64,000 nucleotides of DNA from Wenzhouxiangella sp. 15190. GTDB taxonomy: Bacteria; Pseudomonadota; Gammaproteobacteria; Xanthomonadales; Wenzhouxiangellaceae. The notes beneath the pieces were generated by a model. It searched no databases and was not told where the DNA came from. It was given only the letters and a program-made list of their open reading frames with translations. Both the position numbers and the translations under genes were made by a program. This document shows positions 6,016-39,824 of this stretch, one piece after another. The DNA is taken from NCBI RefSeq assembly GCF_003417465.1, contig NZ_QVMV01000011.1, forward strand, positions 1 to 64,000, given 5' to 3'. Every line of letters starts with the position of its first letter. Positions within the stretch are counted from its first letter, which is position 1.

Positions 6016-8637
6016 TCAGTTCGTCGCTGCCACTGACTCCAGGCGCGCGGCCAATTCCTGCGTGCTCAACAGATCGGGATGCTCGGCCGGCAGCACATCG
6101 GCCCGGATAGCCAGCGCCCGGCTGATTTGTCTTCGGGCATGCTCCTCCCGCTCCAGTTTAAGATTTACCTCACCCATGCGATGCAAAACGCTCGCTACCT
6201 TGGCGTGATTTTCGCCATAGATTTCGCTATAGATGTCCAGCGACTGTCGGTAATGATCGAGGGCGCTTTTATGTTGCCCAAGATCCGCGCGGATGGTGCC
6301 CAGGTTATTGAGGTTGGCTGCCACGGCGCTCGATCGCGGCCCGCGATGCGTCTCGTTGATCGCCTGGACCTGCTTTAACAGATTCTCGGCACGTTGGAGA
6401 TCGCCTGCTTCCCTGGCAACGGCGGCCAGGGCCTGGAGCGCGCCGGCCACCTCGGGGTGGTCCGAACCATAGACTTCCCGCCTGATGTCCAGGCTTTCAT
6501 TCCAGGCCCGTCCCGCGCCCGCGTGGTCACCCGCCTTGTACTGTGCATAGCCCAGCTCGAACCAGGCGGTGGCAACGGCCGGGTGCCGGTCGTCGTAGAT
6601 CCGGCGCGTGGCCACGAGCAGCCGACTCAATATGTCGGCTGCGCCTTCATGATCGCCCAGGTGGTTCTTCACCGCGGCCAGGCGTGTGTCGGTCTTGATC
6701 GAGACCGGATGATCCGGTCCAAGCTGAGACGCGAACTGTTGGCTGGCACGCTGCAGCTGGGAGAGTGAGCGGTCGAAATCACCGATCCGATAATTGGTCA
6801 TGGCCAGATCACTCAGGATATGGCTGACAGGCTGGCTTTGCTCGCCGTCCATCTCACGCCGGATGGACAGGGCCTGACGGAGTGCATTACGAGCCTCGGC
6901 GAAGTTGCCGGAGTTGCGTCGCGCATTGCCCAGCCGGTGATAGGTGTTGGCCAGCTCGTCTTCCGGAACCGGCGACTGCGCGCGAACGATGGCCAGAGCC
7001 TGCGTATGTGCCGCCACGGCCTCTTCGGGACGATCCATGTGATGCAGTGTCTGACCCAGGTTGTTATAGCCCTGGGCGACGCGCAAGTCGCGCTCGCCAT
7101 GGGCCTGGTGAAGCAGTTCGACGGTCCGCTCGGCCAGATCAAGCGAACGGTCGTACTCGCCCAGTGCACGGTAAACCCGGGCCAGAACGCCGGCCATTTG
7201 CGCCTGGATGGCCGGCCGGGCATCGAGCGCGTCGAGTTCCCGCCCGCCACGCGCAAGCAATTCGCGCACGGGAAGCTCCGGCCCCGCTTCATAGACGGGG
7301 TCGGCCGACTCGAATAGTCCGACCAGAAAGTCACTGATCATCGTGGCCTTCGAGGCTTCCAGCTGCGCACGGTCGCGTTCGGCCTGGAGCCGATCGATAT
7401 GCAGGACAACCGCGCTGACCGCAATGACCAGTCCCAGCGCCGAGGCCGCCAGGCCCCAGGGATGCCGTATGGCGTACTTGACCAGCCGATACCGTACCCC
7501 GTCCGGGCGCGCCTTGACCGGACGTCCTTCCAGAAAGTTATCGAGGTCGTTGCCGAAGACCCGGACGCTCGCGTAGCGGCGTTCCGGTTCCTTTCTCAGT
7601 GCCATCAGCACGATCTGGTCGAGATCACCGCGCAGCCGGCGCCTGAGCGCCTGGCGCGTACTGCCGAACTCCCGGGCCAACTGTCCCTTATCGAGCCATC
7701 GCTCGCTCGGAGCGGTCGGCTGGGCATGCGTGACCGCCTCGATCCATTCGGCCGGGGACTCGCCGGTAGTTTCGTAGGGTGATTCCGCACACAGCAATCG
7801 ATACAGCACCAGCCCGAGCTGATAGACCTCGGAGCGCACGTCAATGGCCTTGCCGTTGAGCTGCTCGGGGCTGGCGTATTCGGGGGTCAGCCAGCGCCGG
7901 CTAAGTTGCGTGGCTTCCTGCACGCCCGAGGCCAGATCGGCCTGTATGCCTCCCAGCCCGAAATCGACCAGGCGCACGCGCCCGTAATCGTCGACCAGGA
8001 TGTTCGCCGGTTTGATATCGCGATGCAGCACCATCTGCCCATGGGCGTAATCGAGCGCCTCGCAGACCTGCCTGATCAGCGATACGCGAGCCCGGATTCC
8101 CAGCCGGTAACGACTGCAGTAGTCGTCAATGGGCTGCCCTTCGATATGTTCCATGGCGAACCAGGGCCGCCCGTCGGCGGTCAAGCCGCCGTCGATAAGT
8201 CGGGCAATGCCCGGATGCTCGAGTCGCGAGAGGAGATCCCGTTCGCGCTCGAACCGCCCCACGGCCGCCTCGTCCGGACGGGCACCGCCCAGCACCTTGA
8301 GCGCGACAGTCTGCTCGAACCCGCCGCTGACCCGACGGGCCCGATAGACCACGCCCATGCCGCCCGAGCCGATGGCCTGCTCGATCCGGAAGGGGCCAAT
8401 GACTTCTCCCGGCCCCGCCTGGCCGCTCTCGGCCAGCGCAGCGGCCAGCCGGGCGCCGAACTCCGGCTCTCCCGCCGGCGACCGCGTCAGGGCTTCCAGG
8501 GGCTGTCCGGCATGCGCGAGAAGCCGACGCGCCTGTTCGTCGGACGCTTCCTCATCCTCGTCGATACTGTCCGGCTCACCGGCCAGCTTCCGCTCGAGCC
8601 AGCGGTCCAGTTCGCGCAGCCGTTCTATTGAGGTCAT
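6016..8637 (-). CDS. Membrane-anchored Ser/Thr protein kinase with C-terminal TPR array (kinase 1)
   Basis: 873 residues from the ATG at 8637; the frame also opens at a TTG at 8661. The PknB-type kinase domain has the P-loop GSGGMGVVY, the VALK lysine (K114), HRDIKPAN (D207) and DFG (225-227), so it should be active. A single membrane helix follows at about 394-413, then tetratricopeptide repeats to the end, predicted on the far side of the membrane as a sensor. It diverges from the ECF sigma gene at 8742. In Vibrio parahaemolyticus a kinase of this kind (PknT) activates its ECF43 partner EcfP by threonine phosphorylation; the same pairing is inferred here. Confidence 0.88.
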   Translation of the reverse strand: MTSIERLRELDRWLERKLAGEPDSIDEDEEASDEQARRLLAHAGQPLEALTRSPAGEPEFGARLAAALAESGQAGPGEVIGPFRIEQAIGSGGMGVVYRARRVSGGFEQTVALKVLGGARPDEAAVGRFERERDLLSRLEHPGIARLIDGGLTADGRPWFAMEHIEGQPIDDYCSRYRLGIRARVSLIRQVCEALDYAHGQMVLHRDIKPANILVDDYGRVRLVDFGLGGIQADLASGVQEATQLSRRWLTPEYASPEQLNGKAIDVRSEVYQLGLVLYRLLCAESPYETTGESPAEWIEAVTHAQPTAPSERWLDKGQLAREFGSTRQALRRRLRGDLDQIVLMALRKEPERRYASVRVFGNDLDNFLEGRPVKARPDGVRYRLVKYAIRHPWGLAASALGLVIAVSAVVLHIDRLQAERDRAQLEASKATMISDFLVGLFESADPVYEAGPELPVRELLARGGRELDALDARPAIQAQMAGVLARVYRALGEYDRSLDLAERTVELLHQAHGERDLRVAQGYNNLGQTLHHMDRPEEAVAAHTQALAIVRAQSPVPEDELANTYHRLGNARRNSGNFAEARNALRQALSIRREMDGEQSQPVSHILSDLAMTNYRIGDFDRSLSQLQRASQQFASQLGPDHPVSIKTDTRLAAVKNHLGDHEGAADILSRLLVATRRIYDDRHPAVATAWFELGYAQYKAGDHAGAGRAWNESLDIRREVYGSDHPEVAGALQALAAVAREAGDLQRAENLLKQVQAINETHRGPRSSAVAANLNNLGTIRADLGQHKSALDHYRQSLDIYSEIYGENHAKVASVLHRMGEVNLKLEREEHARRQISRALAIRADVLPAEHPDLLSTQELAARLESVAATN

Positions 8638-8741: not shown

Positions 8742-9296
8742 ATGAGCAATACCGGTGTTATTACAACCCGCCTGGAAGAATGGAGCGAGGGCAACAAGGA
8801 GGCCCTGGATGCCTTGATGCCCCTCGTCTACGAGGACCTGCGAAGCATCGCCCGCCAGCAGCTAAGCCGCCTGCGGCCAAATCAGACCCTCAATACCACC
8901 GCCCTGGTCAACGAAAGCTACGCCAAACTGCAGGCCGGCAATTCACTCGATCTCGAGGACCGCAATCATTTCTTCGCGGTTGCCGCCTGCGCCATGCGCC
9001 AGATCATTGTCGACGAAGCTCGCAGCCTCATGGCCGACAAGCGCACTGGTATCAAGGTCGATCTCGACCAGATTCCGCAGTCGATCGAGGAGCACACGGA
9101 GCAGATTCTGTTCGTCGATCAGTTGCTGGGGCGCCTCGAACAGATCAATGCCGACTTGGTTCGCCTGATCGAATGCCGCTTCTACGCAGGCTATACCCAT
9201 GAGGAAACAGCCAAAATCCTCGGCATTTCCCTGCGCACCGCACAACGCCGCTGGCAGCAGGCCAATGCCTGGCTCCACGAGCTGGCTTCCATCTAA
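8742..9296 (+). CDS. RNA polymerase sigma factor, Sigma70_ECF / ECF43-like (sigma 1)
   Basis: 184 residues; an AAGGGG site precedes the ATG. Region 2 spans about 20-85 and region 4, with a helix-turn-helix (YTHEETAKILGISLRTAQRRW), spans 150-180. The family is the TIGR02999 type. Region 2.2, which in ordinary ECF factors holds acidic residues contacting beta-prime, here reads NTTALVNESY (T52, T53). This charge loss is the feature known from EcfP, where phosphorylation of a threonine restores the contact. No anti-sigma gene is adjacent; the divergent kinase takes that place. Likely targets are the genes with a TGGCG-N16/17-CGTA element downstream. Confidence 0.9.
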   Translation: MSNTGVITTRLEEWSEGNKEALDALMPLVYEDLRSIARQQLSRLRPNQTLNTTALVNESYAKLQAGNSLDLEDRNHFFAVAACAMRQIIVDEARSLMADKRTGIKVDLDQIPQSIEEHTEQILFVDQLLGRLEQINADLVRLIECRFYAGYTHEETAKILGISLRTAQRRWQQANAWLHELASI

Positions 9297-9345: not shown

Positions 9346-9377
9346 TGGCGGACTTTTCCGGTTGTTCTCGTAGAAGG
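9346..9377 (+). promoter_or_regulatory. Putative ECF promoter of fibre 2 (TGGCGG-N17-CGTA)
   Basis: TGGCGG at 9346-9351 and CGTA at 9369-9372 followed by GAAGG. It lies 36 bases before the start codon of the fibre 2 gene, so transcription would begin near 9380. CGTA is a common -10 core of ECF promoters. The same element with nearly the same spacing precedes the genes at 13699, 16727 and, on the other strand, 16590. Confidence 0.6.
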
Positions 9378-9407
9378 AAGTGAACCCATCAATAGCCGGG
9401 GAGTCCG

Positions 9408-11246
9408 ATGCGCCACCTCTTAGTACTGGTGCTGCTAGCTCTGTTCGCAGTTCATGCCGTCGCCAATTCAACCATCACATACCAGGGCCAGCTTCAGGAC
9501 AACGGCCAGCCCTTCGACGGTCAGGCCGATCTGACCTTCGAGCTGTTCGACGATTTCGATCCCGATGATTCAAATGTCGGGAATTCCGTGGCGGGTCCAA
9601 TTTCAGTCAACGATGTAGACATCAGCGACGGCTTGTTCCAGGTCGAACTGGATTTCGGGGCGGTCTACCAGCAGCCGGTCTGGATCGAGATCACTGTAGG
9701 CACCGACACCCTGCACCCCCGGCAACGTCTCACCTCCGCCCCGGTAGCCGTTCAAGCACTCAATGTCTCAAATACTGCCGGCGCCTGGATGCTCGGCGGC
9801 AATACCGGCACTAGTAGTGGCTTTGATTTTATTGGGACCACTGACGACGAACCCTTGCACATCCGCGTCGCTGATTCGCGAGTTCTGCGAATCGAGCCCG
9901 CAGAGTGGGAGAATGAAACCGGCCAAGTATATTTTACCCCCAATTGGATCGCAGGAAGTGTAAGGAACGAAGTAACCCTCTCCTCTGGAGCCACAATTGC
10001 CGGTGGGGGGCGGTTTGGCAGCTACAATCTAGCAAGTGGCGCAAATTTTGGAACCGTTGGTGGAGGTCAGGCAAACGCCGTCATGGACTCTCATGCAACG
10101 GTCGCGGGAGGGAATAGTAATGTCGCTGGCGGCAAAAGCAGTTCCGTGCCGGGTGGTCATGACAACTATGCCGGTGGCGACTTCAGCTTTGCAGCCGGAC
10201 ACCATGCCAAGATCGATGAAGCACACAACGGCACGTTTCTATGGGCCGACTCTACTGATGCGGATTTCAGCAGCACCGGGCCGGACCAGTTCCTGATCCG
10301 GGCCGGCGGCGGAGTCGGAATCGGAACCGATTCTCCCAGAAATCAACTTGATGTAGTACGCAACAAGTCCGGATCTTCGGCCAACGCCAACCACGTCATG
10401 GTGGTCGACAATACGGCAACCAGCCAGGGAAATGTGCTGGGTTTGAGAACCAATGCCACCACGCCCGGCGCCACCGAAAACTTCATAACTTTCAAGGCAG
10501 CCAGTTCCAATGTCGGCGCCATCGAGGGAGACGGCTCGGGCGGTATCACGCTGAGCAGCGGCAGCGCCGATTTCGCCGAGTATTTGCGCGTAGCCGATGG
10601 CGCTGCAGATATACAGCCTGCGGACGTAGTCGGCGTCGTCGGCGACACAGTCTCATTGCAAACCGCACAGGCTGACCGGGCCATGGTGGTCTCGACCCGC
10701 CCGATCATGACCGGCAACGACCCGGGCCTGGAAGCCGGCGACCGGGATGGTCATGTGCCGGTTGCATTCCTCGGCCAGGTTCCTGTTCGGGTTAGCGGGC
10801 CAGTCAATGCCGGTGATTACCTGGTTCCCTCGGGGCTGGACGATGGTACGGGTATCGGCATTCCGCCCGATGAACTGACTGCGAATCAGCTGCCACAGGT
10901 GGTTGGCCGGGCACTGGAAGACGCAAGAACGGAATCCCATGCGCTTGTGAAAACCCTGGTCGGCCTGCCTCAGGCTGCAATCACGGCGTCCGTGATCGAG
11001 CGGCGTGACCTTCGACTGGACCAGCTTGAATCCCGGGTAACGGAACAGGGACAACAACTCGTCCGGCTACACGAAGTCAATGCAAAGCTGCATCACGAAC
11101 TGGATCGACTGGCCTCACGCAATGCCGAACTCCGGGAAACTGTCCGGTCCCTGGTCGGAACCCATGAGCAATCTCCCAAACTGAAACAACGCATCGCCAA
11201 GCTCGAGGCCATTTTGCTGGAGCAGTCCGAACTGGCCAAACACTAA
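9408..11246 (+). CDS. Secreted fibre-like protein with a C-terminal G2-like autoprocessing domain (fibre 2)
   Basis: 612 residues; GGGGAG precedes the ATG and a signal peptide ends near VAN. The ITYQGQLQDNGQPFDGQ domain (20-120) is nearly identical in sequence to that of fibre 3. YadA-head-like repeats follow (about 180-270: TVGGGQAN, TVAGGNSN, SVPGGHDN, SFAAGHHA), then a VGIGTDSP linker. From about residue 386 a domain begins DFAEYLRVAD...VVGVVG and contains VVSTRPIMTGN; this resembles the intramolecular-chaperone G2-type domain of Bacillus phage appendages rather than S74. It ends in a coiled coil, LEAILLEQSELAKH. The N-terminal module is therefore shared while the C-terminal chaperone differs. 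Confidence 0.78.
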   Translation: MRHLLVLVLLALFAVHAVANSTITYQGQLQDNGQPFDGQADLTFELFDDFDPDDSNVGNSVAGPISVNDVDISDGLFQVELDFGAVYQQPVWIEITVGTDTLHPRQRLTSAPVAVQALNVSNTAGAWMLGGNTGTSSGFDFIGTTDDEPLHIRVADSRVLRIEPAEWENETGQVYFTPNWIAGSVRNEVTLSSGATIAGGGRFGSYNLASGANFGTVGGGQANAVMDSHATVAGGNSNVAGGKSSSVPGGHDNYAGGDFSFAAGHHAKIDEAHNGTFLWADSTDADFSSTGPDQFLIRAGGGVGIGTDSPRNQLDVVRNKSGSSANANHVMVVDNTATSQGNVLGLRTNATTPGATENFITFKAASSNVGAIEGDGSGGITLSSGSADFAEYLRVADGAADIQPADVVGVVGDTVSLQTAQADRAMVVSTRPIMTGNDPGLEAGDRDGHVPVAFLGQVPVRVSGPVNAGDYLVPSGLDDGTGIGIPPDELTANQLPQVVGRALEDARTESHALVKTLVGLPQAAITASVIERRDLRLDQLESRVTEQGQQLVRLHEVNAKLHHELDRLASRNAELRETVRSLVGTHEQSPKLKQRIAKLEAILLEQSELAKH

Positions 11247-11295
11247 CTCGAAGCAGGACGGCCAGTATGGGCTTAAGCCGCGCTAAGATAGGCAC

Positions 11296-12579
11296 ATGCC
11301 TGTCGAAATGGACGACTTCATCCGCTTGGCCGTCGCCTTAGCCATTGGCCTGCTGATCGGCATCGAGCGCGGCTGGCAGCGGCGTGAAATCGAGGAAGGC
11401 CAGCGGGTTGCCGGGCTGCGCACCTACAGCCTGATCGGGCTGGTCGGTGGTGTGGTCGGCATCATGAGCCAGGACGGCGGTTACCTGCTCATCGGCCTGG
11501 TCTTCATCGGGCTTGCGATAGCCAGCGCCACCGCCTACCTGGTCACGACCCGCGCCGGGCACGATTTCGGCATCACCAGCGAAACGGCGGCGCTGGCCAC
11601 CTACCTGCTGGCCGTTCTGGCCGGCGTGGGCGAGATTGGCCTGGCCTCCGCGGCGGCCATCGTCATGGCCCTGCTTCTCGGGTACAAGGAAAGCCTGCAC
11701 GGCCTGCTCGACGTGCTGCGGCGGCGGGAGCTGACAGCCGGGCTGAAGCTGTTGCTCATTTCCGTCGTGTTGCTACCCATGCTCCCCAATCAGGGCTACG
11801 GCCCGTGGGACGCCCTGAACCCCTACGTCATCTGGCTGATGGTGGTGCTGATCGCCGCCATCTCGTTTTTCGGGTATATCGCAATCCGCGTATTCGGTCC
11901 AAGCCGCGGTATTGTTTTCGGCGGACTGTTCGGCGGTATGGCCTCGTCGACGGCCACGACCCTGGCCTTTTCCCGCATCGGCGCGCGCCAGCCTGTTCTG
12001 GCGCCGGTTCTGGCCGCGGGCGTGCTTCTGGCCTGCGGCTCGATGATCGGCAGGATGCTGCTGGTCGCCACATTGATCCATCCCCCGCTGTTTCAGGAAC
12101 TCTGGCTGCCCGCCCTGTTGCTGCTCGGCGCCACGCTTGCACCCGTGGCGTTTTACCTGATGAGCGACCTGTCCCGGAAACCGGACGACGGTGAAGCCAC
12201 CCTGATGCGCAACCCCATGGAACTGAAATCCGCCCTGCTCTTCGGCGCCCTGCTGGCCCTCATCATGCTGCTGGGTAAGGGGCTCTCCGAATGGGCCGGC
12301 GATATCGGCCTTTGGGCGCTGGCCGCCGCTTCCGGCCTGGCCGATGTGGACGCTATTACACTGTCCCTGGCGCGCATGAGCACGCAGGATCTCGGCCTGC
12401 AGGTCGCCACGGTGGGCATCGTCATCGCGGCCGCCGCCAACTCGCTGCTCAAGGGCACAATGGCATTGAGTATCGGCGGGCGGGCCCTCGGACTACGGGT
12501 GCTTTTGCCACTGACAGCCGGGTCCGTACTGGCCTTGTCCACGGTGCTTGTCGTCTATCTGACTGGAAGCCAGGCATGA
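11296..12579 (+). CDS. MgtC/SapB-like membrane protein with DUF4010 domain
   Basis: 427 residues with about 12 hydrophobic helices. The N-terminal MgtC-type segment (IGLLIGIERGWQRRE...GLRTYSLIGLVGG) is followed by the DUF4010 helices (GLFGGMASSTATTLAFSRIG). MgtC-family proteins affect magnesium/phosphate homeostasis and ATP synthase activity; DUF4010 members are uncharacterised and may transport something. The ATGA overlap with the aspartoacylase-like gene indicates an operon unrelated in theme to the fibre genes around it. Confidence 0.85.
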   Translation: MPVEMDDFIRLAVALAIGLLIGIERGWQRREIEEGQRVAGLRTYSLIGLVGGVVGIMSQDGGYLLIGLVFIGLAIASATAYLVTTRAGHDFGITSETAALATYLLAVLAGVGEIGLASAAAIVMALLLGYKESLHGLLDVLRRRELTAGLKLLLISVVLLPMLPNQGYGPWDALNPYVIWLMVVLIAAISFFGYIAIRVFGPSRGIVFGGLFGGMASSTATTLAFSRIGARQPVLAPVLAAGVLLACGSMIGRMLLVATLIHPPLFQELWLPALLLLGATLAPVAFYLMSDLSRKPDDGEATLMRNPMELKSALLFGALLALIMLLGKGLSEWAGDIGLWALAAASGLADVDAITLSLARMSTQDLGLQVATVGIVIAAAANSLLKGTMALSIGGRALGLRVLLPLTAGSVLALSTVLVVYLTGSQA

Positions 12580-13619
12580 CCAAACGCAATCAGCCCCTCC
12601 ACATCGGCGGCGTGACCATCCAGCCGGGAGAGCGGCGCAGCATCGATCTCGAAGTCGGCCGACTCTATACCCACTCGCCCACGACCATGCCCGTACAGGT
12701 CCTGTGCGGCAGCAAGGCCGGGCCGGTGCTGTTCGTCTCCGCCGCCATTCACGGCGATGAACTCAACGGCGTCGAAATCATACGGCGACTGCTCAAGGTG
12801 CCCCAACTCAAACGCCTGAGGGGTACGCTGATCGCCGTTCCGATCGTCAACCTGCACGGCTTCATCAACCTGTCGCGCTATTTTCCCGACCGGCGCGATC
12901 TCAACCGCAGCTTCCCCGGTTCGGAAAGGGGCTCGCTGGCCGGGCGGGTGGCCAACCTGTTCATGACCGAGATTGTCAGCCAGGCCACCCACGGCATCGA
13001 CCTGCACACTGGCGCGATCAACCGCGGCAACCTGCCGCAAATCCGGGCCAACCTCGACGACGAAGAGGCTCTGCAGCTTGCAAAGGCATTCGGTACTCCC
13101 GTCATCCTCAACTCGGCGCTGCGCGACGGTTCGCTGCGCATGGCGGCCACCGACCACGACATCCCGATCCTGCTCTACGAAGCCGGCGAGGCGCTGCGCT
13201 TCGACGAGATCGCCATTCGCGGCGGCGTGGAAGGCATCGTCCGGGTCATGCGCCAGCTCGGCATGCTTCCCAGAACGCGAAAGAAGGCGCCGCCGGAGCC
13301 GGTGATCGCCCGCTCGAGCAGCTGGGTGCGCGCACCGCAAAGCGGCCTGTTCCGCGCCTACGTAGCCTTGGGCAACCGCGTGACTCGCAACGAGACCGTA
13401 CTGGGCGTAGTCTCCGACCCCTTCGGCGAAGAGGAAATCGAGGTCCATTCGCCCTGGTCGGGCATCGTTATCGGGCGATTGAATTTGCCGCTGGTGAACG
13501 AAGGCGACGCCATCTGTCATATCGCCCGCTTCTACCGAACCGACATCGCCCACGAACGCGTCGGTGACTACACCGAAACGCTCGAAGCGGAGGATTTTCC
13601 CTACGGTGAACAGAGCTGA
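12576..13619 (+). CDS. Succinylglutamate desuccinylase / aspartoacylase family zinc hydrolase
   Basis: 347 residues, starting at the ATG that overlaps the previous stop. It is an M14-like carboxypeptidase fold with the zinc ligands visible in HGDELNG (His, Glu) and DLHTG (His). DRRDLNRSFPG is the substrate-carboxylate motif of the AstE/AspA family. A C-terminal barrel-like segment (SSWVRAPQSGLFRAYVALGNRVTRNE) is typical of the uncharacterised bacterial subgroup, which hydrolyses N-acyl amino acids of unknown identity. There is no ast operon nearby, so AstE itself is unlikely. Confidence 0.85.
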   Translation: MTKRNQPLHIGGVTIQPGERRSIDLEVGRLYTHSPTTMPVQVLCGSKAGPVLFVSAAIHGDELNGVEIIRRLLKVPQLKRLRGTLIAVPIVNLHGFINLSRYFPDRRDLNRSFPGSERGSLAGRVANLFMTEIVSQATHGIDLHTGAINRGNLPQIRANLDDEEALQLAKAFGTPVILNSALRDGSLRMAATDHDIPILLYEAGEALRFDEIAIRGGVEGIVRVMRQLGMLPRTRKKAPPEPVIARSSSWVRAPQSGLFRAYVALGNRVTRNETVLGVVSDPFGEEEIEVHSPWSGIVIGRLNLPLVNEGDAICHIARFYRTDIAHERVGDYTETLEAEDFPYGEQS

Positions 13620-13631
13620 GCCTTCAACGGC

Positions 13632-13662
13632 TGGCGGTTTGCGGCCGGCTTTACGTAGAAGG
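13632..13662 (+). promoter_or_regulatory. Putative ECF promoter of the propeller gene (TGGCGG-N16-CGTA)
   Basis: TGGCGG at 13632-13637 and CGTA at 13654-13657, again followed by GAAGG. The predicted start of transcription is near 13665, giving a leader of about 35 bases. The -10 and the five bases after it are identical to the copy at 9346-9377, although the spacer differs. Confidence 0.6.
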
Positions 13663-13698
13663 GGACAGGCATTCTTGAAATTTCCGGACAATTCAGCC

Positions 13699-15264
13699 AT
13701 GCAACAGCGCGCGACTAATCTATTTCTGGCCGCATTCACCGCCCAGATCGCAGCGGTATCCTGCGCGCTGGCCGAAGATCCAGGAACACTGTCCTGGGTC
13801 GGCCAGCTGGGCGGCAACGCCATTGACAGGGCTTACGCGATTGCAACGGACGATGCCGGCAATTCATATGTAACGGGTGGCTTCCACGGCAGCGGAGACT
13901 TCGATCCAGGCGATGGCATAACGTGGCTCACCTCGGAGGGAGTTGAAGACATTTTCATATTGAAGCTGGATACAAACGGCGAGCTGGCCTGGGGATATTC
14001 ATTGGGAGGCGAATATGACGACACGGGTCGCGGTATCGGCGTCGATGGCGAAGGAAATGTTTACGTTACCGGGGAATTTCGCGGGACGGTGGATTTCGAT
14101 CCCGGACCGGAAGAAGCTACATTTCAGGCAGCATCGGGGACAAGCCCTGATATTTTTGCCCTGAAATTCGATCCCGACGGCAATTTCATTTGGGCAAGGG
14201 CCATGCATGGCAGTGATGGATCGGACTTTGTCAACGACAGCAGCGTAGACAGCAATGGCAACCTGCTGACCACGGGCAAATTCAATGGCACAGTCGATTT
14301 CGACCCCGGACCCGACTCCTTTCACCTTACCTCAGGAGAAAGGGACGATATCTTCGTTCACAAACTCGATTCAGACGGAAATTTCGTCTGGGCACGCGCC
14401 ATGGTCAGCGATGAATCTAACGAGGGAATCGGAATTGCCGTGGACGATGCGGGCAATGTGTACACCACAGGATCATTCAGAGGGAACCTTGATTTCGATC
14501 CAGGGAGCAACAGCCATCCGCTTACATCAGATCCCGACTCCTCAGATACCTTTGTGCAAAAGCTTGATACCAATGGCGAGTTTGTGTGGGCCGGGAAGTT
14601 TACAGGTGATGGTTTCAACAATGGAGAAGGCATTGCAGTCGACGGGACCGGCAACGTCCACGTGACCGGAAGATTTGACGATACCGTCGATTTTGATCCT
14701 GGCGATGGCACCTACCTTTTGACCTCTGGCGGCGGTGAATTCGCAGGCGAAGGCATCTTTGTGGTCAAGCTGGACACCAACGGCGATTTGCTCTGGGCAC
14801 ACGGCATGGGTGATATGGTCAGCCATTGGGCCCGCAACTCCTACGGCTATGCCATCGCTGTCGACGATACCGGCAACGTCTACACGACCGGCGAGTTCCA
14901 GGGGACCGTGGACTTTGATCCCGGCGGGGACACACACGAACTGACCTGGGTTTGCACCGATCAAGAGGAAGAACAATCGTGTTCCGCCGACATTTTCCTG
15001 CAAATTCTGAACATGGATGGTGAGTTCGTATGGGCCGGCGCCTTGGCGGGGCCCGACGGTGGAACCAATAGGGGCTGGGATATCGCCGTTAACGACGCGG
15101 GCAATTTCTATGTCGCGGGCGAATTTTTCGGAACCGTCGATTTTGATCCGGGGCCCGACACCGAGGAGCGCACGGCAAGCGGATTGACCCCCGACGCTTA
15201 TGTCTCAAAGCATGCGTCCGTATTTCTGGAGTACGTCATTTTCGAGGATGGCTTTGAAGAATAA
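13699..15264 (+). CDS. Secreted seven-repeat beta-propeller-like (SBBP-type) protein with an FEDGFEE tail
   Basis: 521 residues. The ATG at 13699 gives a signal peptide ending near LAE. Seven repeats follow, each with AxDxxGNxYxTGxF, then GTVDFDPG, then a DIFVxKLDxxGxFxWA strand. This is the SBBP/NHL-like pattern of a closed propeller with seven blades. The GN(V/F)Y turns and DFDPG loops are rich in Asp, suggesting calcium binding. It ends EYVIFEDGFEE, a tail shared with the small secreted proteins nearby. No catalytic motif is seen; a surface or matrix binding role is a guess. Confidence 0.8.
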   Translation: MQQRATNLFLAAFTAQIAAVSCALAEDPGTLSWVGQLGGNAIDRAYAIATDDAGNSYVTGGFHGSGDFDPGDGITWLTSEGVEDIFILKLDTNGELAWGYSLGGEYDDTGRGIGVDGEGNVYVTGEFRGTVDFDPGPEEATFQAASGTSPDIFALKFDPDGNFIWARAMHGSDGSDFVNDSSVDSNGNLLTTGKFNGTVDFDPGPDSFHLTSGERDDIFVHKLDSDGNFVWARAMVSDESNEGIGIAVDDAGNVYTTGSFRGNLDFDPGSNSHPLTSDPDSSDTFVQKLDTNGEFVWAGKFTGDGFNNGEGIAVDGTGNVHVTGRFDDTVDFDPGDGTYLLTSGGGEFAGEGIFVVKLDTNGDLLWAHGMGDMVSHWARNSYGYAIAVDDTGNVYTTGEFQGTVDFDPGGDTHELTWVCTDQEEEQSCSADIFLQILNMDGEFVWAGALAGPDGGTNRGWDIAVNDAGNFYVAGEFFGTVDFDPGPDTEERTASGLTPDAYVSKHASVFLEYVIFEDGFEE

Positions 15265-15277
15265 AGCCGCCGACTTC

Positions 15278-15303
15278 CCGCCACCGTCCGAACGGCGGAT
15301 TTT
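15278..15303 (+). terminator. Terminator of the propeller gene
   Basis: CCGCC (15278-15282) pairs with GGCGG (15294-15298), followed by ATTTT. It lies 14 bases after the stop codon. Confidence 0.45.
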
Positions 15304-15374
15304 CGGGGGTTGTGACACGAATTTAGTGAATTTATCGTAATATGGCGTGGAAACGAATTTTTTCGGGAGCCTCA

Positions 15375-15656
15375 ATGATGAAACAGCTCGCAATGATCCT
15401 GCTTCTGACTGCCCTCGCTGCACCCGCTGCTGCGCAGGACTATGAAATCACTCGCTGGACCATTGCTTCCGGCGGCACGATGGAGAGTACCGGCGGCGAC
15501 TGGGAGCTGAAGGGCACCATCGGCCAGTGGGAGGCCACCGAACCGCGCGAACTCAGCGGCGGTCAGTGGAAACTCACCGGCGGCTTCTGGGCCGATCTCC
15601 TCGAGGAACTCGGCGATATCCTGTTCCGGGACCGTTTCGAGCAGGAAGGTTCCTGA
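15375..15656 (+). CDS. Small secreted protein with SGGQWKLTGGFW motif and an FRDRFE tail
   Basis: 93 residues. The ATG at 15375 is chosen because GGGAG precedes it and MMKQLAMILLLTALA... gives a signal peptide ending near AAAQ; an upstream in-frame start at 15342 would prefix a non-hydrophobic stretch. The body reads TRWTIASGG, LKGTIGQWEATEPRELSGG, WKLTGGFW and then LFRDRFEQEGS. It matches the protein at 1704 along its length but lacks the two N-terminal Cys. It stands alone, between the propeller gene and the fibre 3 locus. Function unknown. Confidence 0.7.
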   Translation: MMKQLAMILLLTALAAPAAAQDYEITRWTIASGGTMESTGGDWELKGTIGQWEATEPRELSGGQWKLTGGFWADLLEELGDILFRDRFEQEGS

Positions 15657-15667
15657 CGCTTTGCGCC

Positions 15668-15688
15668 GGGCCACGGCGGTCGTGGCCC
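15668..15688. terminator. Hairpin between convergent genes
   Basis: GGGCCACG (15668-15675) pairs with CGTGGCCC (15681-15688). It is placed between a plus-strand stop and a minus-strand stop and could serve both, although no T-run follows. Confidence 0.4.
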
Positions 15689-15696
15689 ACCGTACG

Positions 15697-16590
15697 TTAC
15701 CGCTCGACCGCGTACGCCGGCTCGACCGCCTCGTACTGATAGAAGCCATCGTGATCGACACGCTCGGTCAACCGGATCTCGACCCGGGCGATCTTGCCCT
15801 CCACCTCGAAATCAGCCACAAAGAGGTCTGCCGAGCCCGGCTCAAGCGCTCCGGGCAGGTTCAGCTGCCCTGAACCACCCCAATGCATGGTGCCATCGTA
15901 GTCCTCGCCCGGCTCGCCGGAATACTCGATACGAACGCCGTTTTGCCGATCATCGGCCAGCACTTCATCACCCCCGTTGACGATACAGCCGGCGACCCGG
16001 ACCTCGCCGCCCGTTGCCTCGATCATCCGCAGTTTCTCGAGCGTGACCTTGCCGTCCGGAACTGCCGACGAAAGCGCAGTACAGACCTGCCGCAGATCGC
16101 TGTCAGGCAATTCCCGGATCGGATAGTCGAGTTCCAACTGATCGGAAAATGCGTGTTCGGCCAGCTCCATTCCATCGCGCAACTGCAGCGCGCGCAGCTC
16201 GATTCCGTTAATCCCCCACTCTTTCAGCCGTTCCCGATCCGGGCGAAATGCATGAGACACGAAGCCTCCCGCTTGCCCCGGCTGCAGTGATTCGAACAAC
16301 AGTGCAGTGGTTCCGCCGCCGCCCCCACGCGACTGAATCTGATTGAACATCAGCCCGGCGCCGTCGAGGGCTTCGTCCCCGGTGTTGCGGATACAGCCGA
16401 CCAGCCGCGCGCCTTCGAGATCGTATGGTCCCCGGTGAATGCGGATCTCCCCCAGTTCGGCTACATCGGTCTCGAGCACCGGCTCGAAGTCTTCGCACTG
16501 ATCCTCTGTCGGGCCTTTTGCCAGACAGGGCAGACCCAACGAAGCCAGCAGCAGCAGGAATATTGGAAGTTTCAGGACGGCCAGATTCAT
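15697..16590 (-). CDS. Secreted protein of unknown function with two related halves
   Basis: 297 residues. The ATG at 16590 is preceded by AAGGAG and starts a signal peptide ending near CLAKG. Two halves can be seen: one with EIRIHRGPYDLEGARLVGCIRNTGDEALDG and one with KLRMIEATGGEVRVAGCIVNGGDEVLADD. Each has a single Cys in VGCI/AGCI followed by an N-x-GDE turn, so an internal duplication of a beta-sandwich (FxLYD-like) domain is likely. I do not recognise the family. It is divergent from fibre 3 and has its own copy of the ECF-like element. Confidence 0.7.
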   Translation of the reverse strand: MNLAVLKLPIFLLLLASLGLPCLAKGPTEDQCEDFEPVLETDVAELGEIRIHRGPYDLEGARLVGCIRNTGDEALDGAGLMFNQIQSRGGGGGTTALLFESLQPGQAGGFVSHAFRPDRERLKEWGINGIELRALQLRDGMELAEHAFSDQLELDYPIRELPDSDLRQVCTALSSAVPDGKVTLEKLRMIEATGGEVRVAGCIVNGGDEVLADDRQNGVRIEYSGEPGEDYDGTMHWGGSGQLNLPGALEPGSADLFVADFEVEGKIARVEIRLTERVDHDGFYQYEAVEPAYAVER

Positions 16591-16629
16591 TTGGTGTCTC
16601 CTTCGGTTGGAAGCAAGCCTGTGTACAAC

Positions 16630-16656
16630 TACGAGAACCACCCGCACTCTCCGCCA
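16630..16656 (-). promoter_or_regulatory. Putative ECF promoter of the secreted two-domain protein (TGGCGG-N17-CGTA, minus strand)
   Basis: On the minus strand TGGCGG occupies 16656-16651 and CGTA 16633-16630. Spacing and flanks (GGTTCTCGTAG) match the copy before fibre 2. Transcription would begin near 16622 and run into the gene starting at 16590. Confidence 0.6.
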
Positions 16657-16668
16657 CGTTTACGGATT

Positions 16669-16699
16669 TGGCGCGTTTTCCCAGATTACTCGTATAGGG
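16669..16699 (+). promoter_or_regulatory. Putative ECF promoter of fibre 3 (TGGCGC-N16-CGTA)
   Basis: TGGCGC at 16669-16674 and CGTA at 16691-16694. The -35 box lies 12 bases from the oppositely oriented -35 box of the divergent gene, so both promoters fit head to head in one 136-base gap. Transcription is expected to start near 16702. The start codon at 16727 has no obvious ribosome binding site. Confidence 0.6.
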
Positions 16700-36643: not shown

Positions 36644-36777
36644 GCGATCACTAGTCCCCACCACGCGTGATTAACGTCATCCGCATTGTAGAGCAAGCGG
36701 GCCCCGGAAATGAAATCGGCATTTCCGGCGGAATGGGTTAGCATTTGAGCATCGATATCCCAGGCAAAAGGACGGGG

Positions 36778-37365
36778 ATGAATCAGCCGAGCAAACAGGC
36801 CGCAGAGCTCGAAGCACTGATCAGGCGCTCTACCGAGCGCGGCGAAGCCTCGCTGGCCAGCATTCTCCCGCTGGTCTACGACGAATTGCGTGCGCTCGCC
36901 GCCCGCCAACTCGCGCGGCAGCGGCCCGACCATACCCTGCAACCCACCGCGCTGATCAACGAGGCCTATCTGCGTCTGGCTGGCCAGGACTACGAAAGCT
37001 GGAAGGACCGGCGGGAATTCGTAATGGTGGCCGCAACGGTCATGCGTCGCGTACTGGTCGATTATGCGCGCCGGCGGCACGCTGACAAGCGCCCGCAGGA
37101 GAAACAGCGCGTCGATATCGACGAGTCCGCACCCGGTCAGTCCTTCGGTCTCGAACTGGTTGCCATCGACGAAGTTCTCGAGCAACTGGCAGAAATCGAT
37201 GAACGCCAGGCGCAGATCGTGGAATTGCGCTATTTCGCGGGCTTGAGCATGGAAGAAACCGCAGAAACGATGGAGCTTTCGCGCTCCACCGTGGCCAGGG
37301 AATGGCGCATGGCCCGGGCCTGGCTCAGGCGGCGCCTGTCGGAGCACGAACTCAATTCCGACTGA
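36778..37365 (+). CDS. RNA polymerase sigma factor, Sigma70_ECF / ECF43-like (sigma 2)
   Basis: 195 residues from the ATG at 36778, which has AGGA at correct spacing; the frame is open from 36745. Region 2 contains QPTALINEAYLRL, with T57 at the place of T53 in sigma 1 and again no acidic pair; region 4 has FAGLSMEETAETMELSRSTVAREWRM. It belongs to the same family as the gene at 8742. It converges with, and overlaps by 14 bases, a Ser/Thr kinase gene. The same phospho-threonine activation is inferred. Confidence 0.9.
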   Translation: MNQPSKQAAELEALIRRSTERGEASLASILPLVYDELRALAARQLARQRPDHTLQPTALINEAYLRLAGQDYESWKDRREFVMVAATVMRRVLVDYARRRHADKRPQEKQRVDIDESAPGQSFGLELVAIDEVLEQLAEIDERQAQIVELRYFAGLSMEETAETMELSRSTVAREWRMARAWLRRRLSEHELNSD

Positions 37366-39787
37366 ACTCCCGCTCAAGCTCGGCCAGCTTGGCGGTGATT
37401 CTCTCGCGCAGGTTTGCCCACTGCTCTCCAGAACCCGGCTTCAGCGAGTCCAGTGCCCGCCCATAGGTTTCTGCGGCCTTGGAATGCTTCCCCTGCATGA
37501 CCTGTGCGCCACCCAACACCTCCAGCGCCGATGCGAGATAAAGGGTTTCGACACCCCCGAACAGTTCCTGGCGCCGCTCCAGGCCAGGCAGGATGTCACG
37601 TACCAGTCGCTCGGCCTCGGCGGCCTCACCGTCACGCAGGTGGAGTGCTGCCAGATTCGTGATCGACAGCCGGTAGAGGTAGTGATCCCGCCCCACGGAT
37701 GCCTCGATCATGCCGGCCGCACGCTCGAACGCCGCAATGCTTTCCTGGTTTCGGCCCAGTCTCGACAAGGCAACACCGAGATTGCCGACAGTATTGGCCA
37801 TGCGCTGGCTCGGCCCGACAAGACGCTCGTGATCGGACAGCAGTGACTCGAACATCGTCACCGCCTGCTGCGGATCGCTGAGCATCAGTGCCGTGGCATG
37901 TACATAACGTCCGCGCAGGCGGCGTGGATCACCCTCGTCATAGACGGTTTCAGCCAGCTGCCGGGCTTTCACCGCGTCCGCCAGGGCTGCTTCCTCCTGG
38001 CCGGCAGCCACACGCGCCCCCACCAGGGCGGATCGCGCCTCGAACAGCAATTCGGAACTCGCCGAGGCGTCATCCAGTTCGTCGATGATGGCCTCGAGAT
38101 CAGCAATGACGGCCTGCGGTGCCTCAGCCAGCACATTGACCTGGTTGCGAAGTCGACGAATCCGCACATGGATCAGCTCCCGGGTATCCTGCAGTTCCTG
38201 CGACTGCTCCAGCAGCGCAATCGCCTGCTCATCCGCATCAATGGCCTCAATCGCCCGACCCGCGGAATCGTAGGCTGCACCCAGCTCGGACTGGAGCATG
38301 GCCCTTTCATCGGGCTGTAATTTTCCCTGGCGCATCTCCTGTGCCTTTTGCAGCAATGGCACAGCCTGTTCACCGAGTCCGAGCGCGTTGTAGGCCTCTC
38401 CAAGCGCCCTGTACATCTGGCCCAGGGCATCCGGATTGCCTCGTTCGGTCTCTGCCAGCTGTTGCCGGCCCCGGTCCAGAATCTCGCGAACGGTCACGTC
38501 GTTCCCCCGACTGGGCAGCGAGTCGGCACCTGCAAGAAGTTCGGACACGAATTCGGTGACCGCCTCGGCCCGGTCACGTTCCCAGGCCACTCGGTCAAGC
38601 TGTCTTTCCCGATCAACGAGAAAGGCCGCGAGCGCTGCTACGGCCACCAGGCCAAGCGCGAGCGTCAATCGATGTCGCCGCATAAAGCGGCCGCTGCGAT
38701 ACAGCACACCGCCCCCGTACGCCCGAACAGGGCGATACGTCCTGAACCGCTGCAGGTCGTCGGCCAACGAGCGAACCGAATCATAGCGTTTCCGCTCTTC
38801 GACATGCATGGCCCGGTCGATTACGCTGGCAAGATCCCGCGGCAGGGGCGTCCCATCACGAGCCCGGGGCTCGGAATAGCGACCCCGAAGAACACGCTCG
38901 CGCAACGTTGCCGGGTCGTGGGTTCCTTCAAAAGGCGATTTGCCACCCAGAAGTTCGTAGAGCAGGACGCCCAGTGAATAAACATCGGTAGCCACACTCA
39001 GGCCGGCACCCTGGACCTGTTCAGGACTGGCGTACGCCAAGGTCAGCGCCCCGGCACCCTCACCGGCCTCACTATCTGAATCGAGCAGGCGCGCAACACC
39101 GAAATCGAGCAACTTCGGCTCGCCAGAGGGAGTAACCAGGATATTGGCCGGCTTGAGGTCGCGATGAATGACCATATGGCGGTGTGCATAGTCGACGGCC
39201 TGGCATACCTTGATGAACATTGCCAGGATCTCGGCCCGCGATCGACCGCTCGCCGCCCACTGGTCGATTGGCACGCCCTCGACGAATTCCGTGGCAAGAA
39301 AGGGCCTGCCATCGGCCGTCAATCCGCCGTCGATCAACCGTGCAATGCAGGGGTGATCGAGCGCGGAGAGGATGCCGCGCTCGATCGAGAATCGTCGTGA
39401 CAGCACTTCGTTGTCCGACTCGTGCAGGTGCAGCAACTTGAAGGCGACCGGCTGTCGCAGGTTGCCATCGACGCGCTCGGCTAAATAGACGATACCCATG
39501 CCGCCCTGGCCGAGACGCTTGATCAGTCGATAGTTCCTGGGAAGCGGGACCTCCAGGGAAACGTCCTGCAGGGCACCGCGGGCCGCGGCCTGGAAACGTT
39601 CCGGCACTTCGTCGTCGGCATCATCTTCAGCGGCCTCGATCAGCCACTCCACTTCCCGCTCGAGGGCTTCGTCCGACGCGCAACGCGATTCGATTATCGC
39701 CCGCCGTCGTGCCGGCTCGTACTCGAGTGCTTCCAGGGCGATTGCCTTGGCTTCGCGGTAGCGTTGCCTGGCCGAGTCGTCACTCAT
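37352..39787 (-). CDS. Membrane-anchored Ser/Thr protein kinase with TPR-like C-terminus (kinase 2)
   Basis: 811 residues from the ATG at 39787 (a GTG at 39817 is in frame). A helical N-terminal segment is followed by a kinase domain with GQGGMGIVY, FKLL lysine K117, HRDLKPAN (D210) and DFG (228-230), one membrane helix near 380, then helical TPR-type repeats. Active-site residues are complete. Its 3' end overlaps the sigma 2 gene on the other strand, so antisense transcription could link their levels. A TGGCAT-N16-CGTA element upstream suggests control by one of the ECF factors. Confidence 0.88.
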   Translation of the reverse strand: MSDDSARQRYREAKAIALEALEYEPARRRAIIESRCASDEALEREVEWLIEAAEDDADDEVPERFQAAARGALQDVSLEVPLPRNYRLIKRLGQGGMGIVYLAERVDGNLRQPVAFKLLHLHESDNEVLSRRFSIERGILSALDHPCIARLIDGGLTADGRPFLATEFVEGVPIDQWAASGRSRAEILAMFIKVCQAVDYAHRHMVIHRDLKPANILVTPSGEPKLLDFGVARLLDSDSEAGEGAGALTLAYASPEQVQGAGLSVATDVYSLGVLLYELLGGKSPFEGTHDPATLRERVLRGRYSEPRARDGTPLPRDLASVIDRAMHVEERKRYDSVRSLADDLQRFRTYRPVRAYGGGVLYRSGRFMRRHRLTLALGLVAVAALAAFLVDRERQLDRVAWERDRAEAVTEFVSELLAGADSLPSRGNDVTVREILDRGRQQLAETERGNPDALGQMYRALGEAYNALGLGEQAVPLLQKAQEMRQGKLQPDERAMLQSELGAAYDSAGRAIEAIDADEQAIALLEQSQELQDTRELIHVRIRRLRNQVNVLAEAPQAVIADLEAIIDELDDASASSELLFEARSALVGARVAAGQEEAALADAVKARQLAETVYDEGDPRRLRGRYVHATALMLSDPQQAVTMFESLLSDHERLVGPSQRMANTVGNLGVALSRLGRNQESIAAFERAAGMIEASVGRDHYLYRLSITNLAALHLRDGEAAEAERLVRDILPGLERRQELFGGVETLYLASALEVLGGAQVMQGKHSKAAETYGRALDSLKPGSGEQWANLRERITAKLAELEREFSRN

Positions 39788-39824
39788 CAAGACTGCGCCA
39801 ACGGTGCGGGTAGGCACCTCAGAT

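Follow-up and report, generated by a model that had tools for sequence, protein, structure and literature searches.

The locus and its four candidate promoters

The DNA analysed here, referred to as the window, is a 64-kb stretch of the 3.13-Mb genome of Wenzhouxiangella sp. 15190 (contig NZ_QVMV01000011.1, positions 1-64,000). It contains the gene of an extracytoplasmic function (ECF) sigma factor, sigma 1, a divergent gene for a Hanks-type kinase and four genes for exported proteins, each preceded by a short element with the layout of an ECF-type promoter (Table 1). A first-pass annotation of the sequence had described this element as four sites reading TGGCG(G/C)-N16/17-CGTA. All of them were retrieved where it had placed them: a search with TGGCGSN{16,17}CGTA returns exactly four matches in the window, for an expectation of 0.65, and this number was reached in none of 100 shuffles. 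The distances of 22, 21, 21 and 22 reported from GGCG to CGTA agree with the sequence, in which the described continuations GAAGG, GAAGG and TAGGG are present, as is the GTTCTCGTAG common to two sites. The sites had been located 30-45 bases ahead of the exported-protein genes; the measured gaps between CGTA and the start codon are 35, 41, 39 and 32 nt for sites 1 to 4, respectively, and 12 nt separate the -35 blocks of sites 3 and 4. The four proteins have signal-peptide-like starts, as judged by eye and with a simple hydrophobicity rule of the authors, which missed the propeller and fibre 3 during the matrix scan described below. The CGT in the -10 region that is a hallmark of ECF promoters is found in all four sites.

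Table 1. Features of the locus and candidate promoters elsewhere in the source genome (positions in the window unless a contig is named; scores are those of the matrix described in the text)
Feature	Position	Strand	Remarks
Hanks-type Ser/Thr kinase	6016..8637	-	Pkinase and C-terminal TPR repeats; one membrane-spanning stretch by eye; divergent from sigma 1
Sigma 1, ECF sigma factor	8742..9296	+	Sigma70_ECF / TIGR02999; NTTA in region 2.2
Promoter site 1 (predicted)	9346..9372	+	TGGCGG-N17-CGTA; 49 nt past sigma 1 stop codon; score 25.4
Fibre 2, exported, 612 aa	9408..11246	+	Behind site 1
Promoter site 2 (predicted)	13632..13657	+	TGGCGG-N16-CGTA; score 14.6
SBBP beta-propeller protein, exported, 521 aa	13699..15264	+	Behind site 2
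Two-domain protein, exported, 297 aa	15697..16590	-	Behind site 3
Promoter site 3 (predicted)	16630..16656	-	TGGCGG-N17-CGTA; back to back with site 4; score 14.6
Promoter site 4 (predicted)	16669..16694	+	TGGCGC-N16-CGTA; score 20.7
Fibre 3, exported, 821 aa	16727..19192	+	UspA1-type repeats, C-terminal Peptidase_S74 chaperone domain; behind site 4
Sigma 2, Sigma70_ECF	36745..37365		Own Ser/Thr kinase and TPR neighbour at 37352-39817
Candidate site C20 (L180)	C20:217-246		TGGCAG-N17-CGTA; score 26.7; 41 nt before exported protein of at least 487 residues
Candidate site C6 (L179)	C6:137155-137184		TGGCAG-N17-CGTA; score 21.6; intergenic; 118 nt before exported protein of at least 461 residues

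Recurrence of the element in relatives

Orthologues of sigma 1 were sought in 43 genomes of the family, where their scores are well separated from those of the paralogues (at least about 183 bits, except for one fragment, against 143 at most). At E 1e-45, 398 genomes of the order gave one more distant hit in addition, and a search of genome contigs for related loci provided three distant relatives. In the 14 orthologous loci that were read, the sigma factor is 50-69% identical to sigma 1 over the aligned parts and a kinase of the same kind is always present, adjoining the sigma gene in 13 loci and lying one gene away in the last (L078). TGGCGG-N16/17-CG(T/C)A starts 39-49 nt past the sigma stop codon in five loci, namely the source genome (G000), G031, G026, G028 and contig C260 of G030. 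In G031, G026 and G030 C260 the element is followed by the gene of a beta-helix protein, and in G028 by that of a fibre-type protein, which is split over several frames in the draft assembly. On G030 C260 (L153, 2096-4693), the sigma and kinase copy is broken across frames and element sites stand before two exported-protein genes.

A dyad search independent of the earlier motif was applied to the 150 nt behind 14 sigma genes (the source and 13 orthologues; L073 was left out, as the contig ends there), counting all pairs of a 5-mer and a 4-mer separated by 14-19 nt. The top dyads, TGGCG or GGCGG combined with TCTC, CTCG, CGCA and overlapping words, occur in 5 of the 14 downstream regions. None of 100 shuffled sets reached five, the best shuffled dyad being present in four regions at most.

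The family genomes were also searched with TGGCGGN{14,15}CTCGYA. After removal of one duplicate, 86 distinct sites remained, and at each of them an open frame was sought 12-90 nt downstream that had a ribosome-binding-like sequence and a signal-peptide-like start; on G028 C105 the start lies beyond 90 nt. Such a gene follows on the same strand at 20 of the 86 sites, compared with 112 of 6000 random positions, and on the opposite strand at a single site. In the seven same-genus genomes with the sigma factor, 13 of 20 matches precede an exported-protein gene, versus 7 of 66 in all others (Fisher p 3.5e-6); without the source genome the former count becomes 11 of 18 (p 2.8e-5), the assignment of matches to genomes having been counted by hand. 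The 66 include about 10 matches from five other-genus genomes with a more distant orthologue, none of which precedes an exported-protein gene. A promoter variant, TGGC-N17-20-CGNA before signal-peptide genes, was tried for the other-genus orthologue genomes (L069, L074-L078) and rejected after one unconvincing hit. The flagged sites of the same-genus sigma carriers sit 30-83 nt ahead of start codons, and several sites of relatives carry CGCA instead of CGTA.

Ten predicted targets, nine from relatives plus the protein behind the C20 site, were compared with Pfam: four gave beta-helix/NosD matches (that of L150 weak and under the cut-off), L071 gave a weak lipoprotein match, and five gave nothing. 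The L153 target is a fifth beta-helix protein, and several other predicted targets start like lipoproteins or fibres. Judging from these sequences, what the predicted targets share is export rather than one protein family.

In the source genome, a near-consensus search allowing up to 3 mismatches produced no match with a 16-nt spacer (reversed control, 2) and five with a 17-nt spacer (reversed control, 0). These are site 1, the C20 and C6 sites of Table 1, and L181 and L182, neither of the last two reaching 8 with the matrix. The protein behind the C6 site shows Beta_helix matches and is of the same kind as the gene beside sigma in G031, G026 and G030 C260. By sequence, the C20 and C6 sites are likely further promoters of the same regulon. 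The regulon had been described as compact: four of its genes do lie in the window, but it would not be confined to this stretch. The predicted element is likewise broader than first described, as its -35 reads TGGCAG in these two further sites and its -10 may be CGCA as well as CGTA. Another match of this genome (L003, 1501-1527), 48 nt before a lipoprotein-like gene, has a low matrix score.

A matrix built from 13 sites outside the source genome ranks the four window sites 1st to 4th on both strands of the 64 kb, and the next match scores 12.4. Two of these four do not fit the pattern used to gather the training sites. In 1.03 Mb of partly overlapping DNA, 40 matches score 13 or more; the top 13 are the training sites, followed by site 1.

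Contrary observations and competing explanations

Several observations weigh against the sites being promoters of sigma 1. The loose consensus is not enriched in the source genome, with 36 exact matches versus 62 for the reversed control, and the case therefore rests on the relatives. Four of the 36 fall in 7.35 kb of the 3.13 Mb (Poisson p about 2e-6), a post hoc figure since this window is where the motif was first noticed; when the loci of all 36 were scanned with the matrix on both strands, none outside the window reached 13 at the matched place. The family-wide pattern shows no overall excess either (87 matches versus 217 for the reversed pattern). The matrix sites were hand-picked, having been found with a pattern derived from two window sites. 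The two weaker window sites (14.6) are not compelling alone, because 5 of 30 shuffled windows hold one or two matches of at least 14.6; none of the 30 holds four, and their best score is 21.6. High scores occur where no gene starts within 120 nt, at L119 (G003, 24.3), L002 (source genome, 22.6) and L122 (G006, 21.0), and good sites precede exported-type genes in two genomes in which no sigma orthologue was detected, G024 (L144, 34.5, a training site) and G032 (L154, 24.4). No element was seen by eye in the 200 nt directly after sigma in 8 of the 14 orthologous loci, which are G030 C282, G013, G018 C172 and, more distant, G001 (two loci), G003, G005 and G007; two others lie outside this judgement, as the contig ends within the gene in G018 C135 and the similar stretch of G023 C26 is inside an inverted repeat near the contig end. 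Finally, the AAC of the hallmark ECF -35 is absent from the four window sites, which have TGGCGG or TGGCGC. Random occurrence throughout the genome had been named in the first-pass annotation as the outcome that would undermine its proposal. On this point the loose consensus is of no help, and the support comes from the same-genus sigma carriers, with their 13 of 20 matches before exported-protein genes.

The sites might be ECF-type promoters read by another sigma factor, for instance another of the five Sigma70_ECF proteins encoded by the source genome, as the two orthologue-less genomes would suggest. This is rather improbable. Both exceptions come from incomplete genomes (83% for G024 and 88% for G032), five sites stand directly behind sigma 1 or its orthologues, and the matches before exported-protein genes are concentrated in the same-genus orthologue carriers. 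Sigma 1 is the likely reader, and sigma 2 was rejected since none of the 8 window matches scoring at least 9 lies within 7 kb of it.

There is little chance that the element serves as operator for a DNA-binding regulator, or is conserved for some other non-promoter role, instead of being a -35/-10 pair. Such a view would draw on the promoter role being predicted from sequence, and on a GC-rich TGGCGG unlike the AAC given as the -35 hallmark of ECF promoters in PMC8103513. It is opposed by the architecture, in which CGTA or CGCA stands 16-17 nt behind the first block and, in the flagged same-genus sigma carriers, 30-83 nt from start codons, and by a strong bias in strand, an exported-protein gene lying downstream on the same strand at 20 of the 86 sites and on the opposite strand at one. 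A sigma-54 promoter was rejected as well: its consensus is GG-N10-GC, which is present in none of the four window sites, and the spacing does not fit.

It is highly improbable that the similarity was inherited through fibre-gene duplication, without regulatory meaning, and this was rejected as sole cause: the N-terminal domains of fibres 2 and 3 are 82% identical, but the element is also found at propeller, two-domain, beta-helix and lipoprotein-like genes, and among 30 fibre-family loci (excluding fibre 3 and the G028 fibre-type genes with sites, and with a scanned stretch that may be misplaced where contig ends cut) an upstream site scoring at least 8 exists at fibre 2 only. The fibre N-terminal domain has 11 matches in the source genome, several of them close to contig ends, and a further fibre-family gene with Peptidase_S74 lies at 208-1707 of the window.

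A putative kinase-activated regulon and its known counterparts

The relatives support the initial proposal of an ECF-type promoter element of sigma 1 that would serve a regulon of exported proteins. The four sites are most likely promoters read by sigma 1, which the neighbouring kinase would probably activate in order to express secreted or surface proteins. Sigma 1 matches Sigma70_ECF (5.2e-43) and TIGR02999 (1.9e-52) over residues 7-180 of 184, and is of the ECF type with regions 2 and 4 only, as in group ECF43; a search of solved structures returned two weak matches, both designed repeat proteins. In region 2.2, the register of which was set by eye, NTTA stands where an acidic DAED is usual, giving the uncharged stretch with threonine that characterizes ECF43. 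The form xTT(A/S/G) occurs in all 14 sequences covering the region (of 15 aligned), with D first in two. By its kinase neighbour and this threonine, sigma 1 looks like an ECF43 factor. Such sigma factors are largely expanded in the 43 family genomes, with up to 17 sigma 1 matches per genome.

The TGGCGG element was not seen by eye in the 110 nt ahead of sigma 1 or of its same-genus orthologues, and CAGTATACT is common to the upstream region of seven sigma loci from two genera where the element is absent. Taken together, these two observations suggest that the sigma 1 gene is probably not autoregulated; positive autoregulation is a hallmark of ECF systems, of which the sequence alone gives no sign for this gene.

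The following mechanism can be proposed. With NTTA in place of the acidic DAED that binds core polymerase, sigma 1 would probably be inactive until phosphorylated. The divergent membrane kinase, a probable activator that was missing from the first interpretation, would sense something, presumably a signal from outside, via its outer TPR domain, and would phosphorylate the region 2.2 threonine, thereby switching sigma 1 on. Sigma 1 would bind the sites only in this phosphorylated form, reading TGGCGG as -35, a spacer of 16-17 and CGTA as -10. The active holoenzyme would transcribe, in the window, the genes of the two fibres, the beta-propeller and the two-domain protein; elsewhere in the source genome, the exported-protein gene behind the C20 site and the beta-helix gene behind the C6 site; and, in relatives, genes for beta-helix proteins, for lipoproteins and for fibres. 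It can be speculated, with some reserve, that a kinase-activated, non-autoregulated ECF factor with a GC-rich -35 acts at the genus level as a switch devoted to altering secreted and surface proteins, and that each of the many paralogous sigma-kinase pairs in the family has a similar private promoter code.

Among the genes concerned, that of the two-domain protein gave no Pfam or NCBIfam match. A small exported protein ending ILFRDRFEQEGS is encoded at 15342-15656, between two regulon genes and without the element. The motif (L/I)FxD(R/G)FE is found near the C-terminus of many exported proteins of this bacterial family (window 15229-15264, L067, L142, L150, L137, L176 and others). Among 2357 open frames of at least 120 aa, many of them spurious, it lies in the last 16 residues in 25 and elsewhere in 6; a signal-peptide-like start is present in 15 of these 25, versus 231 of the 2332 frames without such an end. 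Its sequence and position suggest a tag for sorting or anchoring by the C-terminus.

The sigma-W type ECF promoters of Bacillus subtilis read TGAAAC-N16/17-CGTA, and sigma-W is governed by an anti-sigma factor. The sites described here have the same -10 and spacing, but their -35, TGGCGG, lacks the AAC. According to the consulted parts of PMC8999054 and PMC13147305, ECF43 factors have a threonine in the place of the acidic DAED and are activated by a neighbouring kinase; no target promoter sequence for this group was found in these parts or in that of PMC8103513. In Xanthomonas citri, the gene of the ECF43 factor EcfK stands, as here, beside that of a Hanks-type membrane kinase, PknS, whose layout (N-terminal kinase, membrane helix, periplasmic TPRs) resembles that of the present kinase. 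Both sigma factors have a region 2.2 threonine, within QATE in EcfK and NTTA in sigma 1; the T51A form of EcfK is still functional (PMC13147305, in part). EcfP of Vibrio parahaemolyticus, another ECF43 factor without DAED, has STTA where sigma 1 has NTTA, and the phosphorylation of its second threonine by the kinase PknT is activating (PMC8999054, in part). The present regulon is a new and well supported prediction; the system is of a kind already known, and its -35 is unusual. What comparative genomics yields here is a candidate promoter of 26-27 nt, together with its predicted targets and pair of regulators, the kinase-linked factor concerned being apparently not autoregulated. As far as these sources extend, EcfK controls type VI secretion (PMC13147305) and EcfP a polymyxin-resistance regulon (PMC8999054), whereas the predicted targets of sigma 1 are fibres, the propeller, beta-helix and other exported proteins, which would add surface fibres and secreted repeat proteins to the outputs of such systems.

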